NCBI GenBank assembly: GCA_947169885.1
Contig: CAMVRM010000007.1
Coordinates: 1-64,000 of the forward strand
Origin: an uncultured Ruminococcus sp.
GTDB taxonomy: Bacteria > Bacillota > Clostridia > Oscillospirales > Ruminococcaceae
DNA: 64,000 nucleotides
Reading direction: 5' to 3'
The notes beneath the pieces were generated by a model, which made no database searches, was not told the origin of the DNA, and was given only the letters and a program-made list of their open reading frames with translations. Shown piece after piece: positions 2,144 through 49,422 of the stretch. Numbering within the stretch: the stretch's first letter is position 1; each line of letters starts with the position of its first letter. Position numbers and translations under genes: made by a program.

Positions 2144-3103
2144 TCAAAATTTTCTCGGGAAATAGGTCGTGAGTTCGTCTATGTCCTGCTGTGAGAGTGT
2201 CTGTTCCTGCGGCTTTTGTTTAGGGAAATGAGTATCAATGAAGCGCTTCGCACGTTCAATCTCTTCTTTATTTTTCTGTTCTATCTCTAACAAAGCACTC
2301 AGCTTGTCTGCTCTGAGCTGTTCTTCACTGAGATGAACTTCACTCGGTTCAGCTTCACTTTCATGAATTGAACTTGTTTGGTCTGTTTTGTCCTGAACAG
2401 AACTTTCTTCAACTTCATTCGGCTGAACTTCACTATTCTCGATTAAACTGTCTTTGTTTGTTCTTTTCTCAGCTAAACTCGACTTATTTATACTTGTTTC
2501 GACTATTTTCGACTGGATTCGACTTGCTTCGACTGAAATTGACTGAACTTGACTCTCCTGAACTTCATTCGACTGAACTTCACTTTCCTGAATTGAATTA
2601 TGTTTGTCTGTTTTGTTCTGAGCTGAACTTTCTTCGCTTTCACTCACCTGAACTAAACTCGCCTGAACTTCACTTCCCTGAACTAAACTATCCTCACCTG
2701 TACTAGACTTACCTATACTATCCTCGGTTAACCACATATTAAGATTTTGTGAATACTGTTTATCAAGTGTATATTCTCCGTTTTCTTTAATGTGAAGCTT
2801 TTTCTTTTCTTCGGTATAAACTGACGAATGATAACGGTCTTTTCGGATAAGATTGCTGATTTTCCAGTGTGCGATAGCCACAACGCCCGACTCAAACTGA
2901 ATGAGAAACTTGCCATTGATAAGCTCCTCGAGTATCGCCTTGCTCAGACCCAGCATTCTTGCCTGCGAGCGTGGGTTCTTCACAAACCCGTCATCGTCAG
3001 CCTGCATACCCAAGTGGAAGTAGAGCAGCTGTGCCTCGTGGGAAAGATCGAGAAAATCGTCACAGTCAATCACACTCTTTGCGAACATTCTTCTTTCTGC
3101 CAT
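2144..3103 (-). CDS. DnaD-like replication protein with repetitive tail
   Basis: The first ~120 residues (MAERRMFAKSVIDCDDFLDL..., then IAHWKISNLIRKDRYHSS) resemble the winged-helix N-terminal domain of phage and plasmid replication-organiser/DnaD-like proteins of Firmicutes. Residues ~130-270 are a low-complexity Ser/Glu/Val/Gln/Thr stretch built from degenerate 5-residue units of the type xSEVQ, encoded by 15-nt repeats. The last ~50 residues are Lys/Glu-rich and end in a short DELTTYFPRKF motif. The canonical DnaD C-terminal YxxxIxxxW motif is not visible. The start at 3103 follows AAGGAGGAAAC. No phage genes are adjacent. Binding to a primosome component is possible but not shown. Confidence 0.6.
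   Translation of the reverse strand: MAERRMFAKSVIDCDDFLDLSHEAQLLYFHLGMQADDDGFVKNPRSQARMLGLSKAILEELINGKFLIQFESGVVAIAHWKISNLIRKDRYHSSVYTEEKKKLHIKENGEYTLDKQYSQNLNMWLTEDSIGKSSTGEDSLVQGSEVQASLVQVSESEESSAQNKTDKHNSIQESEVQSNEVQESQVQSISVEASRIQSKIVETSINKSSLAEKRTNKDSLIENSEVQPNEVEESSVQDKTDQTSSIHESEAEPSEVHLSEEQLRADKLSALLEIEQKNKEEIERAKRFIDTHFPKQKPQEQTLSQQDIDELTTYFPRKF
2340..2705 (-). repeat. Degenerate 15-nt coding repeats
   Basis: Within the DnaD-like gene, units encoding xSEVQ, xSSVQ or NEVQE recur many times in register. On the plus strand they read as repeated CTGAACTTCA-like words. This explains the repetitive shadow ORF at 2368-2706. Confidence 0.75.
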
Positions 3104-3772: not shown

Positions 3773-4453
3773 ATGATCTCAGCATTTATGTCAGGCGATA
3801 AAGAAACCATTATACTGACGTTTTTTGTTTATCTGATGATAATTTTTCTGATAACACCGATACACGAATTTGCCCACGCATGGGCGGCTCACAAGCTGGG
3901 CGACGACACCGCACGCCTTAAAGGAAGGCTCACGCTCAATCCGCTGGCATCGCTCGACCCGCTCGGCACGCCTGCCATGCTCCTGTTCGGCTTCGGCTGG
4001 GGCAAGCCCGTGCCTATCAACCCACTGCGCTTCAAGGAGTACCGCAAGGGCATCGCTCTGACGGCGCTCGCAGGACCCCTCTCGAACTTCATCGTGGCGT
4101 TTTTCGGCATGATCGCCTATAAGTTCGCTTTGTATTACTACTTCACGAACCCTACCGATGTGGCGTATTACATTAAATGGGCATTAGAGCTTTTTACGAC
4201 CCTGAACATCGGTCTCGGCGTGTTCAACCTTATCCCGATACCGCCCCTTGACGGTCAGAAAATACTCTCCTACTTCACCTCGAAAGAAGTGGACGAGTTC
4301 ATGTACCGCAATCAGATGTTCCTGACGCTTGCACTGTTTGCGCTCATTTCGTCGCCCATTCTGGGCAAGGTCAGGGAAGTGGTCTTTATCGGCTATGACA
4401 AGCTGACTTTCTTCATCGACCCGATCGCTCAGTCGTTATTTCCCATTCCATGA
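3773..4453 (+). CDS. Site-2 protease family (M50) membrane metalloprotease
   Basis: Intramembrane zinc protease of the compact M50 type found beside scpA in Firmicutes. HEFAH (residues 31-35) carries the zinc ligands and catalytic Glu, and NLIPIPPLDG (152-161) is the second conserved element with the Asp ligand. Hydrophobic segments at about 12-30, 66-78, 95-122, 138-158 and 176-195 indicate several membrane passes. No PDZ domain is present, unlike RseP/SpoIVFB-type enzymes of regulated proteolysis. The start follows a GAGGAAAGC site. The stop overlaps the scpA start by 4 nt (ATGA), so translation is coupled. The substrate is unknown. Confidence 0.9.
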   Translation: MISAFMSGDKETIILTFFVYLMIIFLITPIHEFAHAWAAHKLGDDTARLKGRLTLNPLASLDPLGTPAMLLFGFGWGKPVPINPLRFKEYRKGIALTALAGPLSNFIVAFFGMIAYKFALYYYFTNPTDVAYYIKWALELFTTLNIGLGVFNLIPIPPLDGQKILSYFTSKEVDEFMYRNQMFLTLALFALISSPILGKVREVVFIGYDKLTFFIDPIAQSLFPIP

Positions 4454-6129
4454 GCATTCCCGAGTTCAAGCTTGACGCTTTTGAAGGGCCTCTTGACCTT
4501 CTTCTGCACCTTATCCAAAAGCACAAGCTTAATATTTATGACATAGAAATTTCACTTCTTCTTGACCAATATCTGGAATACATCGAGGGTCTGGAAGAGC
4601 AGGACTTCGACTCGGCAGGCGATTTTCTCGCAATGGCGGCTCGGCTGGTCTACATCAAGACCTGTTCGCTCCTGCCCCAGCCCGAGGAAGCGGAGGAAAT
4701 GAAGAAGGAACTGCAAGGCGAACTGCTGGACTATTCCGACTGCAAGGCGGCGGCGGCAAGGCTTCTCAGGCTGTCGGTCTACGGCGAAGTGTTCGTGCGC
4801 CCGCCCGAGAAACTGCCCGTCAACAAGGTCTTTACGGGGCGCATCGACCCTCAGCGGCTCGTGGACGCATACCTCGGCATGAACGCCAAAACACGCAGTT
4901 TGAAGCCCATCCGTGCGGAGCAGTTCACGCCGCTCGTGCGCTCACGTTTCGTAACAGTCACCTCGAAGATCATACACGTTTTGAAGCGCCTGCTGAGATC
5001 GGGCGAATGCACCATTGCGGAGCTGTACGTGGGCGTGACCGACAGATCTTCACGTGTGGCGACATTTCTTGCGGTGCTGGAACTTGCAAAGTCGGGGCGC
5101 ATCAGGCTCAACGATGACAACACGGTCATAAGTTTCAACCGCAATGCTCCACGCCGTCATGCTCCCGAAAACAAAGTTAATATTGTTACATCGGTCAGAA
5201 AGTCCGAGTATGTCAAGCCGCTTGTTACCGTTGAACGGACTGTTAATAAGGCGGAATATGTCAAGCCGCTTGTTGCTGTTGAACGGACTGTTAATAAGGC
5301 GGAATATATCAAGCCGTATGTTACTATTGAGCAAATTGTTAATAAGCTTGAATACGTAAAGCCTGTTGTTACTGTTGAAGAAATTGTTAACAAGCAGGAA
5401 TATGTAAAGCCGTCAGTTGCTGTTGAAGCAGTTGTAAATAAGCTTGAATATTCTGCGCCTGTGGTTACTATCGAACAAACGTTAAATAAGTCGGAGTATA
5501 TCAAACCGAGACTTGTTATTACCGAAACACTTGCAAAACGGGGCTATTTACAGCCTGAGATATACATAAAACAAGTGACGAACGAACAAGAAAACAGTTC
5601 GGGAAATGTTACTATTGAACAAGTTCCTGTTAAAGAGGTCTACCTTGCACCGAACGTTACTGTCGGGACTGTTGCAGAGGTCACGCCGTATATAGTTCGT
5701 GAAGAAGAACACACGGACATAACGCCCGTTGTTAATATCCTGCAATCGACTGTACCTGAAACGGAAGAAAAAGCTGTTGTTCCTGCGCCTGTTATCGAAC
5801 GGCGTTTTGATGACCTGACTTTCGGTGAACAGGAAACAGAAGTTCGCATGGCAGACGGGCAGGGAAGTGCTGAGGTTCATATCCTGCAACTTGCTGACGA
5901 AACGCCCGAGGGTGAGCATACTATTAATAATAGGCACGAAACGGCTAAAACTGCCGCACTCGATGCCGTCGGGATTGTTCACACAAAGGCGATACCTGCG
6001 TTCCTCCTGCTGACCGACAGCACGCCCGAACGCACTGAAAAAATCAACAATAACCGCTTCGGAATGCGCTTTTTCTGGGGCTATCCCGCAAAAGGCAGCT
6101 GCTGGAGCTATCGGAGGGTGAGATTATGA
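4450..6129 (+). CDS. scpA: Segregation and condensation protein A with repeat extension
   Basis: Kleisin subunit that bridges the Smc heads and binds ScpB in chromosome condensation. Residues 1-~240 are a standard ScpA (FEGPLDLLLHLIQKHKLNIYDIEI at the N-terminus, LAMAARLVYIKTCSLLP, and a C-terminal winged helix with FLAVLELAKSGRIRL). A normal ScpA ends there at about 250 residues, but this protein runs to 559. Residues ~250-410 are about ten 16-residue units of the form NKxEYVKPxVTVEQxV. Residues ~410-559 are an acidic, Thr/Glu-rich tail ending in a basic GYPAKGSCWSYRRVRL. The frame is open throughout, and the stop overlaps the scpB ATG. The extension's function is unknown. Confidence 0.88.
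   Translation: MSIPEFKLDAFEGPLDLLLHLIQKHKLNIYDIEISLLLDQYLEYIEGLEEQDFDSAGDFLAMAARLVYIKTCSLLPQPEEAEEMKKELQGELLDYSDCKAAAARLLRLSVYGEVFVRPPEKLPVNKVFTGRIDPQRLVDAYLGMNAKTRSLKPIRAEQFTPLVRSRFVTVTSKIIHVLKRLLRSGECTIAELYVGVTDRSSRVATFLAVLELAKSGRIRLNDDNTVISFNRNAPRRHAPENKVNIVTSVRKSEYVKPLVTVERTVNKAEYVKPLVAVERTVNKAEYIKPYVTIEQIVNKLEYVKPVVTVEEIVNKQEYVKPSVAVEAVVNKLEYSAPVVTIEQTLNKSEYIKPRLVITETLAKRGYLQPEIYIKQVTNEQENSSGNVTIEQVPVKEVYLAPNVTVGTVAEVTPYIVREEEHTDITPVVNILQSTVPETEEKAVVPAPVIERRFDDLTFGEQETEVRMADGQGSAEVHILQLADETPEGEHTINNRHETAKTAALDAVGIVHTKAIPAFLLLTDSTPERTEKINNNRFGMRFFWGYPAKGSCWSYRRVRL
5197..5676 (+). repeat. Ten 48-nt tandem repeats inside scpA
   Basis: In-frame units of 48 nt start at codon 250. Units 1-3 are nearly identical at the DNA level, while units 8-10 have drifted (AKRGYLQPEIYIKQ, NEQENSSGNVTIEQ, VKEVYLAPNVTVG). 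Because 48 is divisible by 3, the other frames also stay open, which creates the repetitive shadow ORFs on both strands here. Confidence 0.93.
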
Positions 6130-6716
6130 CCGACCTTACACAGCTTGCCGCACACGTTGAAGCGGTTTTGTTTTCGAGCGGCGACCCTCTCGCTGCCGAA
6201 AAAATTTGTGCGGCTCTCGGAGTTACGAAGCGTGAGTTGAATCTTGCTGTGGAAATGCTCGAAGGCAAATACGCCGCCGAGGACAGCGGCATCGAACTTC
6301 TGCACCTCGGCGAATCCTACCAGCTTGCTGTGAAAAAGCAGTATTCCGCAGACGTGAAAGCCGTGTTGGAGATAAAAAAAGGTGCGACCCTCAGCCCTGC
6401 CGCCATGGAGGTGCTGACGATCGCCGCCTATAACCAGCCCGTCACCAAGGCGTTTGTCGAACACGTCAGGGGCGTGGACTCATCGAGCGTGGTCAATTCG
6501 CTTGTCGAGAAAGACCTGCTCTGCGAAACGGGGCGGCTGAATCTCCCCGGGCGACCCGTTGCGTACAAGACCACCGAGAATTTTCTGCGTGCCTTCGGGC
6601 TGAGTTCGCTCGATGAACTGCCTGCTCTGCCCGAGCGCCAAGACCAGCTGACTTTTGAGGACACCGCTCCCGACAAGGAGGCTGACGAGGAAAATACAGA
6701 CGCAGAAGCTGAATAA
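6126..6716 (+). CDS. scpB: Segregation and condensation protein B
   Basis: Winged-helix partner of ScpA in the Smc condensin complex. The 196-residue length fits the family. Conserved features are the N-terminal HVEAVLFSSGDPL, central LSPAAMEVLTIAAYNQPVTK and RPVAYKTTENFLRAFGLSSLDELP. The last ~25 residues are acidic and variable. The start ATG overlaps the scpA stop (ATGA), and its ribosome site GGAGGGTGA lies within the last scpA codons, so expression depends on translation through the scpA repeat region. Confidence 0.95.
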   Translation: MTDLTQLAAHVEAVLFSSGDPLAAEKICAALGVTKRELNLAVEMLEGKYAAEDSGIELLHLGESYQLAVKKQYSADVKAVLEIKKGATLSPAAMEVLTIAAYNQPVTKAFVEHVRGVDSSSVVNSLVEKDLLCETGRLNLPGRPVAYKTTENFLRAFGLSSLDELPALPERQDQLTFEDTAPDKEADEENTDAEAE

Positions 6717-23035: not shown

Positions 23036-23090
23036 AAGAAATAAGAGATAAGAGATAAGAGATAAGAAATAAGAGATAAGAATTAAGAGA
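23036..23090 (+). repeat. Heptamer array, copy 3
   Basis: Seven or so consecutive GATAAGA/AATAAGA/ATTAAGA units in the gap between the divergent ruvX and pheA genes. Confidence 0.85.
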
Positions 23091-23131
23091 TCGGCTATGT
23101 TAAATTATAATTACCATTTTGTAAAATCGGT

Positions 23132-47681: not shown

Positions 47682-49325
47682 TTATTTTTTCTTTCTTGCA
47701 ACAACGAATACGCTTGCGGCAAGAACCATCACGGCACTTCCGACTCCTGCGGCACTGCCCGTGTTCGCAACTGCGCCTGTGCTTGAAGTTGAAGCGACCG
47801 AACTGCTCGAAGCGGTACTGCTTGACGATGCGGAACTTGTGTCAGTTACCGAACTGCTGTCGGGAAGGGAACTGCTTTCGGCGACAGAACTGCTTTCAGC
47901 CACGGAACTGCTGTCGGGAACAGAACTGCTCTCAGCCTCAGAACTCGACTCCTCGGAAGAACTGTCCTCAGCGGCAGACTTCACGGAAATGTTCATTTTC
48001 TGAATGTCCTTAGTGTCGGTGACGGTGAGCGTGTTGCCCTCCAGCTCGAACTTGTCGCTGTCGATCTCCACGGTGTACTCGCCCGGCTCAACATTATAGA
48101 GCGCAAAACTCTTGCCGTTGGCTTTTTCGGGGAACTCAAAAGGCGTTTTCAGGATGTGACCTGCAACTTTACCTGCGAGCATTCCGCTTGTGCAGTTCAT
48201 GTAACGGAATCCGATATTATCCCAAGCTTCGTCTTTCTTGACCCAGATCGGGAAATTGCCGTTTTCATCGGGAATGCTTGCGGTAACGACTGCACCGTAC
48301 TCAAAAACGTAGGAGAACGTATGTTCGTTGCCCTCAGCATCAACGGTATTGCCCCTCAGATCGTAATGAACAGGGTCATCTCCGTCAGAGCTGTAAAAAT
48401 TATAATCGAATGTCATATCGTCATTTACATCGAACATATACGACAGCGCATATTTCGCAGGAACTAAAACCTTTACGTAAGTTTCGTCCTTGTCAGATGC
48501 AACAACATCACGGTTATAGGCATTTGTGCCTGCGCCGTCACCATGCCGACCGAACCACATGAGGTATCCGCCGGGTTCAGCATCATATGTCAGCAACTCG
48601 CCGCAGTGTTTGTTAGGTTCGATGTCCATTTTTGCTTCGTCCTGAAGAACGAGATCTTTTTCATCATCGTTATTATTGAAATAGATATATGTAGTCTTGT
48701 CGTTTTTAGCCGCATAATTTTCGTCAACTGCAACAACAATATGGTTTACAGGAACGGTCATTTCGTCAATTACGTCAAAAGGTTCTCTCGAATACCCCAT
48801 AATGATATATGAACCGCCGGGGGTCAGGCAATACTTCACCACGCCATCCGACTTAATACTTGCGAAAGAGCCGTAACCGTTAAGATCAACAAGCGGAGAA
48901 GCAAGAAGCGGATACATCTTTCTTATGTTCTGAGGTTCGCACAGCTTGCAGAGCTGATCCTTGTCATAGTCGACCAGCTTTTTCCAGTCGGCGTTCTCCT
49001 CGGAGAAGCCCGAAATATCGAAAAGGTTTTCGTCCTTTATTTCGTCAAAGCCAACGTTTTCGTCAGCAATTTCGGTCATACCCGTCCAGCTTGCGATCTC
49101 AGTGCCGTCTTTCTTAACGGTGAACTTCAAGCCGTCAATGTCAAGACCGCCGTTGTCGACAACAAAATTGACGTAAGGCTTGTTGACCTTGATCTCAGTC
49201 TCGTCAATAAATTTGTAGTCATCGGTCTCGGAGTAAAAATTTGGTTCAGCGCAGACGTTCAAAGCACAAGCCGATGCAATGGCTGCGCAGGAAAGTCCTG
49301 CGATGATCCTTTTTGTCAGTTTCAT
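47682..49325 (-). CDS. Secreted Ser-rich surface protein
   Basis: A 547-residue exported protein of unrecognised family. The signal peptide covers ~1-25 (ALNVCAEP). The body (26-~440) is acidic and beta-rich with no known domain, and contains GGYLMWFGRHGDGAGT. Residues ~445-515 are a Ser/Glu/Ala-rich stalk with repeated SSSVAE and SSSVPD units. The C-terminus (GAVANTGSAAGVGSAVMVLAASVFVVARKKK) is a membrane helix with a basic tail. ANTG may be a degenerate sorting signal. The start at 49325 follows GGAAGCGC. Possible role in surface binding. Confidence 0.6.
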   Translation of the reverse strand: MKLTKRIIAGLSCAAIASACALNVCAEPNFYSETDDYKFIDETEIKVNKPYVNFVVDNGGLDIDGLKFTVKKDGTEIASWTGMTEIADENVGFDEIKDENLFDISGFSEENADWKKLVDYDKDQLCKLCEPQNIRKMYPLLASPLVDLNGYGSFASIKSDGVVKYCLTPGGSYIIMGYSREPFDVIDEMTVPVNHIVVAVDENYAAKNDKTTYIYFNNNDDEKDLVLQDEAKMDIEPNKHCGELLTYDAEPGGYLMWFGRHGDGAGTNAYNRDVVASDKDETYVKVLVPAKYALSYMFDVNDDMTFDYNFYSSDGDDPVHYDLRGNTVDAEGNEHTFSYVFEYGAVVTASIPDENGNFPIWVKKDEAWDNIGFRYMNCTSGMLAGKVAGHILKTPFEFPEKANGKSFALYNVEPGEYTVEIDSDKFELEGNTLTVTDTKDIQKMNISVKSAAEDSSSEESSSEAESSSVPDSSSVAESSSVAESSSLPDSSSVTDTSSASSSSTASSSSVASTSSTGAVANTGSAAGVGSAVMVLAASVFVVARKKK

Positions 49326-49422
49326 TTTTTGTGCGCTTCCTTTCAATTGCGTTATATTTTTGTATCTCTATTTTATCACAAAATCATCATTTTGTCAAGC
49401 GCATAATAGTCAAGTTGCATAT

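Follow-up and report, generated by a model that had tools for sequence, protein, structure and literature searches.

The window analysed here, a stretch of 64,000 nucleotides from an uncultured Ruminococcus species, carries scpA at 4450–6129 on the forward strand as an uninterrupted open reading frame of 559 amino acids. It is followed by scpB, which begins at 6126, the scpA stop and the scpB start overlapping as ATGA. The locus is made up as follows:

4450–5142, forward strand: ScpA kleisin core, approximately residues 1–231, comprising an N-terminal Smc-neck/ScpB-binding domain and a C-terminal winged helix (Pfam, AlphaFold2, alignment with relatives)
5197–5532, forward strand: seven clear tandem units of 48 nt (16 aa), consensus NKxEYVKPxVTVExTV (TRF, unit matrix, profile scores 59–77)
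5533–5676, forward strand: three degraded units of the same 16-aa repeat (profile scores 27, 37 and 37; null maximum 23)
5677–5949, forward strand: non-repetitive acidic stretch of the disordered linker (composition; pLDDT below 50)
5950–6018, forward strand: motif A, TAALDAVGIVHTKAIPAFLLLTD, residues 501–523, a weaker patch conserved in congeners (G001, L003 and others)
6049–6126, forward strand: motif B, the basic-aromatic tip NNRFGMRFFWGYPAKGSCWSYRRVRL, residues 534–559 (alignments, profile matches, codon-level selection)
6126–6716, forward strand: scpB (Pfam SMC_ScpB, E 1.2e-49)

As a subunit, ScpA is compact and conserved, and it belongs to the bacterial loop-extruding complexes, which are usually regarded as acting on DNA alone. 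An ordinary ScpA has about 240–270 amino acids, and among the phylum-wide matches listed no open frame exceeds 330 amino acids. The window protein resembles ordinary ScpA in its core of about 231 residues, in the scpA-scpB gene order and in its winged-helix end. Residues 21–221 match SMC_ScpA (PF02616) with an E-value of 1.6e-16 and 61.4 bits, compared with a curated cut-off of 24.6, and the solved ScpA structures 3w6j, 4i98 and 3zgx are matched as well. The protein is thus an SMC_ScpA kleisin with an adjacent scpB and an intact C-terminal winged helix, and the open frame bears out the original prediction that it continues to 559 residues, past the usual end near 250. The NCBIfam model NF001751 (PRK00478.1), a segregation and condensation protein A of 505 positions, is likewise far longer than 250 residues, but only residues 7–89 of the window ScpA match it (model positions 164–247) and the tail has no match.

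In the AlphaFold2 model the winged-helix domain, residues 170–229, has a pLDDT of about 94, after which the value stays below 50 for nearly all of residues 238–544, with a small rise to 52–63 over the last 20 residues. The kleisin is therefore whole before the tail begins. The extension had been placed at the site of contact with the Smc head; since the Smc-binding winged helix is complete upstream of the tail, it lies outside that site.

The tandem array is detected by TRF with a period of 48 at 5209–5508, and autocorrelation of the ScpA protein at lag 16 gives 82 matches (shuffled mean 22, shuffled maximum 39). The ten 16-residue units first counted are present as seven clear and three degraded ones, both groups having been scored against a profile of the units themselves, with a null maximum of 23. 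The unit of 48 nt preserves the reading frame, as had been proposed. Units 1–3 had also been called almost identical in DNA, which is overstated: the identities are 85% for units 1 and 2, 81% for 2 and 3 and 71% for 1 and 3, and successive units at the front of the array share 85%, 81% and 75%. DNA identity among the seven clear units has fallen to 48–85%, and a recent expansion is for this reason only mildly supported.

The same divergence bears on the reading of the repeats as an assembly or sequencing artefact, which is extremely improbable. Arrays of this kind do break assemblies: the nearest relative, G001 (core 91% identical), carries a 16-aa unit akin to that of the window, PKEQYTVPTVTIERAV, whose array enters an assembly gap of 285 N, and in G089, G347 and G349 the tip is found on a separate contig. 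The diverged units of the window, however, assemble through, a related unit is present in G001, and the complete chromosome of R. bicirculans 80/3 (L087) has both tail and tip.

Other repeats occur elsewhere in the window. Arrays of 7-nt units are found at 37–96 (TCTTATC, eight copies), 1390–1420 (AAATAAG, four copies) and 23036–23091 (AAGAGAT, eight copies). On the reverse strand, 2144–3103 encodes a protein of 319 amino acids that lacks a Pfam match and contains a Q/E/S-rich region built of degenerate 15-nt repeats (ESEVQ-like), and 47682–49346 encodes a protein of 554 amino acids, predicted to be secreted and C-terminally anchored, with a serine-rich stalk of 18-nt repeats (SSSVAE/SSSVPD) in an array of 113 bp.

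The tail had further been described as long and acidic. This is true of residues ~409–530, with 25 D/E and 9 K/R, but not of its end, the last 29 residues containing 7 K/R, no D/E and 7 aromatic residues. GC content at the third codon position (window 5146–6126) is 0.39 in the linker, down from 0.69 in the core, and 0.63 in the tip.

Every genome of the genus (g1) in which ScpA is readable, 11 in all, has a long open ScpA frame of 365–576 amino acids, and in g1 and g73 taken together ScpA has 365–623 amino acids. In the rest of the family most genera have their stop at 234–265 amino acids, and R. flavefaciens likewise near 240–265. The extension was to be doubted if relatives stopped near codon 250; the frame is open in every congener with a readable ScpA, and the extension is real. 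As an observation apart, one genome of the family has three equal-score scpA matches within 10 kb (G016:C3:945989-955434), the result either of amplification at that site or of faulty assembly.

Between core and tip, the tails of the relatives compared are unalignable, predicted to be disordered and mostly acidic. In a set of 64 tails, which includes the N-gapped frame of G001, length ranges from 60 to 379 amino acids with a median of 181, so the variation in length suggested at the outset is seen between species. The linker has a mean charge of −26 and 3% aromatic residues, compared with +4.8 and 20% for the last 34 residues, the latter averages taking in the tails of genus g121 discussed below. 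Strong periodicity is found in 21 of the 64, with best lags of 6 to 41 residues and differing repeat units, which indicates that tandem duplication makes new linkers repeatedly. The 16-aa unit of the window, searched for across the genus, occurs only in ScpA of this genome and of G001, all other matches being at noise level. G010 has an array of a clearly different 16-aa unit, EEKPENQPVQIAVQVA, the tail of G006 has a period of 14 amino acids, and that of G004 (core 88% identical) has no clear repeat. The repeats, which had been taken as the key element, are therefore not what is conserved, as the linker differs from species to species; judged by these comparisons, the ten-unit array is one species' replaceable linker.

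The conserved element is the tip, formed in the window by the last 26–29 residues of ScpA. All complete congener tails finish with a version of INRFSxRYYWGYPxxGNCWxYRRERL, and the tip was found in each of the 11 genus members whose ScpA is readable. It is common to 55 distinct ScpA cores from genera g1, g71, g73 and g78, including those of R. albus (L091) and R. bicirculans (L087); versions are VFKPNYWAKRRYYWGYSPVGDDGDNNFWCYG in R. bicirculans, VFKINRFGTRYYWGAHSWAEGRLRLG in R. albus and PKVNLWNNSAIRHYTVAQGTLRKANLWGYLRKANTYADR in g71. In the tree of ScpA cores the tip-bearers of g1, g73 and g78 form one cluster (91/86), and g71 falls close to it. A tip profile gives one strong match each in 28 of 29 g73 genomes, the 29th being without any ScpA match, and one each in 18 of 299 genomes of the family, which represent 4 of 115 genera; in a class-wide sample of 391 genomes nothing else rises above noise. 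No second copy was found elsewhere in this genome, and the g73, class and family searches gave no strong second matches.

Wherever the contig is continuous, the tip matches are ScpA C-termini. Short contigs or gaps part the tip from the core in G001, G089, G347 and G349. In G001 the link is direct, motif A and the tip NRFGRRCRWGHPAEGNCWSYRRERL lying beyond the gap, while in the other three genomes the tip presumably belongs to the same protein. Motif A, the patch upstream of the tip, has counterparts IALEAVSSRHSLAIPAFSLFID in G001 and IALETMAARHSLAIPAFVLFND in L003, and its short form reads ALDAVGIVHTKAIPAF in the window and ALEAVSSRHSLAIPAF in G001; putative versions of it outside the genus are suggestive only.

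The difference between tip and linker is also visible in alignment scores, 86 for the tip against 22 for shuffled sequences over 30 amino acids, and 53 against 43 for the linker over far longer stretches. Within the genus, tip codons show a pS of 0.79 and a pN of 0.26 (pN/pS 0.33, compared with 0.18 for the core), which indicates constraint on the tip at the protein level. It is the tip that selection retains, the repeats being a replaceable linker.

The codon data also bear on the reading in which loss of the old stop left scpA with a neutral 3' extension, the tail, whose tip is conserved as the ribosome-binding site of scpB. In this genus the Shine-Dalgarno sequence of scpB, GGAGG, does sit inside the last tip codons of scpA, and the last nine codons have a lower pS (0.51) and a higher pN/pS (0.48). 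Such a site overlaps only the last tip codons, however, and so cannot account for conservation of the tip: conserved residues lie 40–80 nt upstream of the scpB start, and a block of 12 tip codons is saturated synonymously (pS 0.79) while its amino acids are kept. Moreover, most of the g73 loci examined start scpB about 10–30 nt past the scpA stop and still keep the tip. The ribosome-binding site as the cause of conservation is thus largely refuted by codon-level divergence, and this reading as a whole is very unlikely.

A role of the extension in binding a partner or as a spacer, both raised in the original prediction, is plausible. In the model proposed here a normal ScpA kleisin would be followed by an intrinsically disordered linker free to change in sequence, whose length would change largely through in-frame tandem duplication, represented in this species by the ten 16-aa units. 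The basic-aromatic tip of 26–37 residues at the extreme C-terminus would then dock Smc-ScpAB to something fixed, the likeliest single target being the surface of the cytoplasmic membrane. The basic-aromatic tip, the acidic linker, its disorder and the turnover of its length suit the picture of a hook on a fishing line. That the tail acts as a tether is likely, and the model as a whole, with its kleisin, flexible linker of variable length and docking tip, is somewhat more probable than its contrary; the membrane as the target of the tip is a tentative choice. The membrane surface ranks first among the docking candidates, a protein partner close behind it and DNA third.

The membrane is placed first on account of the interface partitioning of the tip, as calculated, and of a predicted transmembrane helix at the corresponding place in genus g121. 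The best 13-mer of the tip has a median Wimley-White interfacial energy of −4.3 kcal/mol, compared with a 5th percentile of −1.07 for the core. Unlike in classical membrane-targeting helices, no amphipathic helix is apparent in the tip, its helical moment being no higher than that of shuffles, and some tips contain a conserved acidic pair, VGDD, which counts against membrane docking.

The interfacial energy derives largely from the aromatic content and would equally suit a protein-binding motif. The tip may instead be a short linear motif recognised by another protein (the Smc head or hinge, ScpB, ParB, or a divisome or replisome protein), with the linker setting its reach as in the tails of SSB and FtsZ. 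The retention of specific aromatic and N/R/W/G positions, beyond what bulk hydrophobicity needs, is in line with this, as are the single copy per genome, on ScpA alone, and the order of a long flexible linker and a conserved tip, the usual architecture of such motifs. The tip has no match in Pfam or PDB (one member reaches E 0.3 in Pfam), and a protein partner by itself leaves the transmembrane ends of g121 unexplained; it is a serious candidate, if a somewhat doubtful one.

Binding of the tip to DNA as an extra kleisin anchor, tuned or masked by the acidic linker, would suit its net charge, which averages about +5, and the lack of acidic residues in this species. It is unlikely, as tips of the R. 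bicirculans type have a net charge of only about 0 to +2 and a conserved DD, and a transmembrane end of the g121 kind would not bind DNA.

In g121, a related genus, 5 of 6 complete tails have a predicted transmembrane helix at their end in place of the tip. These helices have Kyte-Doolittle values of 2.0–2.4 and are preceded by a basic stretch, as in KRSYINGVLTGVCVAAVGIGLYVAAKEIMTTKRG; in L063–L065, L161 and L164 the helix core is conserved and TGVCxAAVGIGL-like, again with basic residues before it. AlphaFold2 models residues 375–403 of L152 as one helix, with a pLDDT of 74–81 over the last 30 residues. The g121 tail without a helix, L066, appears aromatic by eye and was considered as a homolog of the tip; it was rejected with a profile score of −2.6 bits, and homology between tip and helix end is therefore unsupported. 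The core tree separates g121 from the main tip clade and puts it among short-tailed genera, so its helix is possibly an independent invention. The helix may have replaced the tip or arisen in parallel, and either origin would fit a common requirement for ScpA to be positioned at some site. A second ScpA in G008 (L031, G008:C21) is near-identical to the g121 type (L063) and lies on a separate contig; it is probably assembly contamination.

It is quite possible, though short of even odds, that the condensin of the Ruminococcus clade is membrane-attached, in most genera by an interfacial tip, in one by a true transmembrane segment. Smc-ScpAB would then be held at the cytoplasmic membrane by a disordered ScpA arm that evolves in length, with tandem repeats serving as an adjustable linker within a core chromosome protein. 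The literature searched, open-access only, where absence is no proof, yielded no ScpA with a natural arm for docking to a membrane or a partner, and nothing on a ScpA tail, membrane-bound ScpA or Ruminococcus condensin. The tail is a clade-level variation on a known protein, strongly supported in its anatomy and more tentative in its proposed target. A clade that built, kept and re-engineered a kleisin tether would be a natural experiment on the existence and manner of condensin anchoring, and the ScpA with tail and tip is present in the cultured species R. albus and R. bicirculans.

The architecture is similar to that of FtsZ, where a folded core is followed by a hypervariable disordered linker and a conserved C-terminal peptide that binds FtsA, ZipA and SepF. 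The ScpA tails likewise have a disordered, fast-evolving linker and then a conserved tip, without homology to FtsZ. A second parallel is RocS of Streptococcus pneumoniae, a segregation factor with a C-terminal membrane anchor, in which altering the nature of the anchor is reported not to be drastically harmful (PMC11500499); such a factor can thus require an anchor whose exact kind is exchangeable. RocS differs from ScpA in that it has a DNA-binding domain of its own as well as an amphipathic helix, and it is neither homologous to ScpA nor a subunit of Smc, but its interchangeable anchor resembles the alternation of tip and predicted transmembrane end among the relatives of this ScpA.
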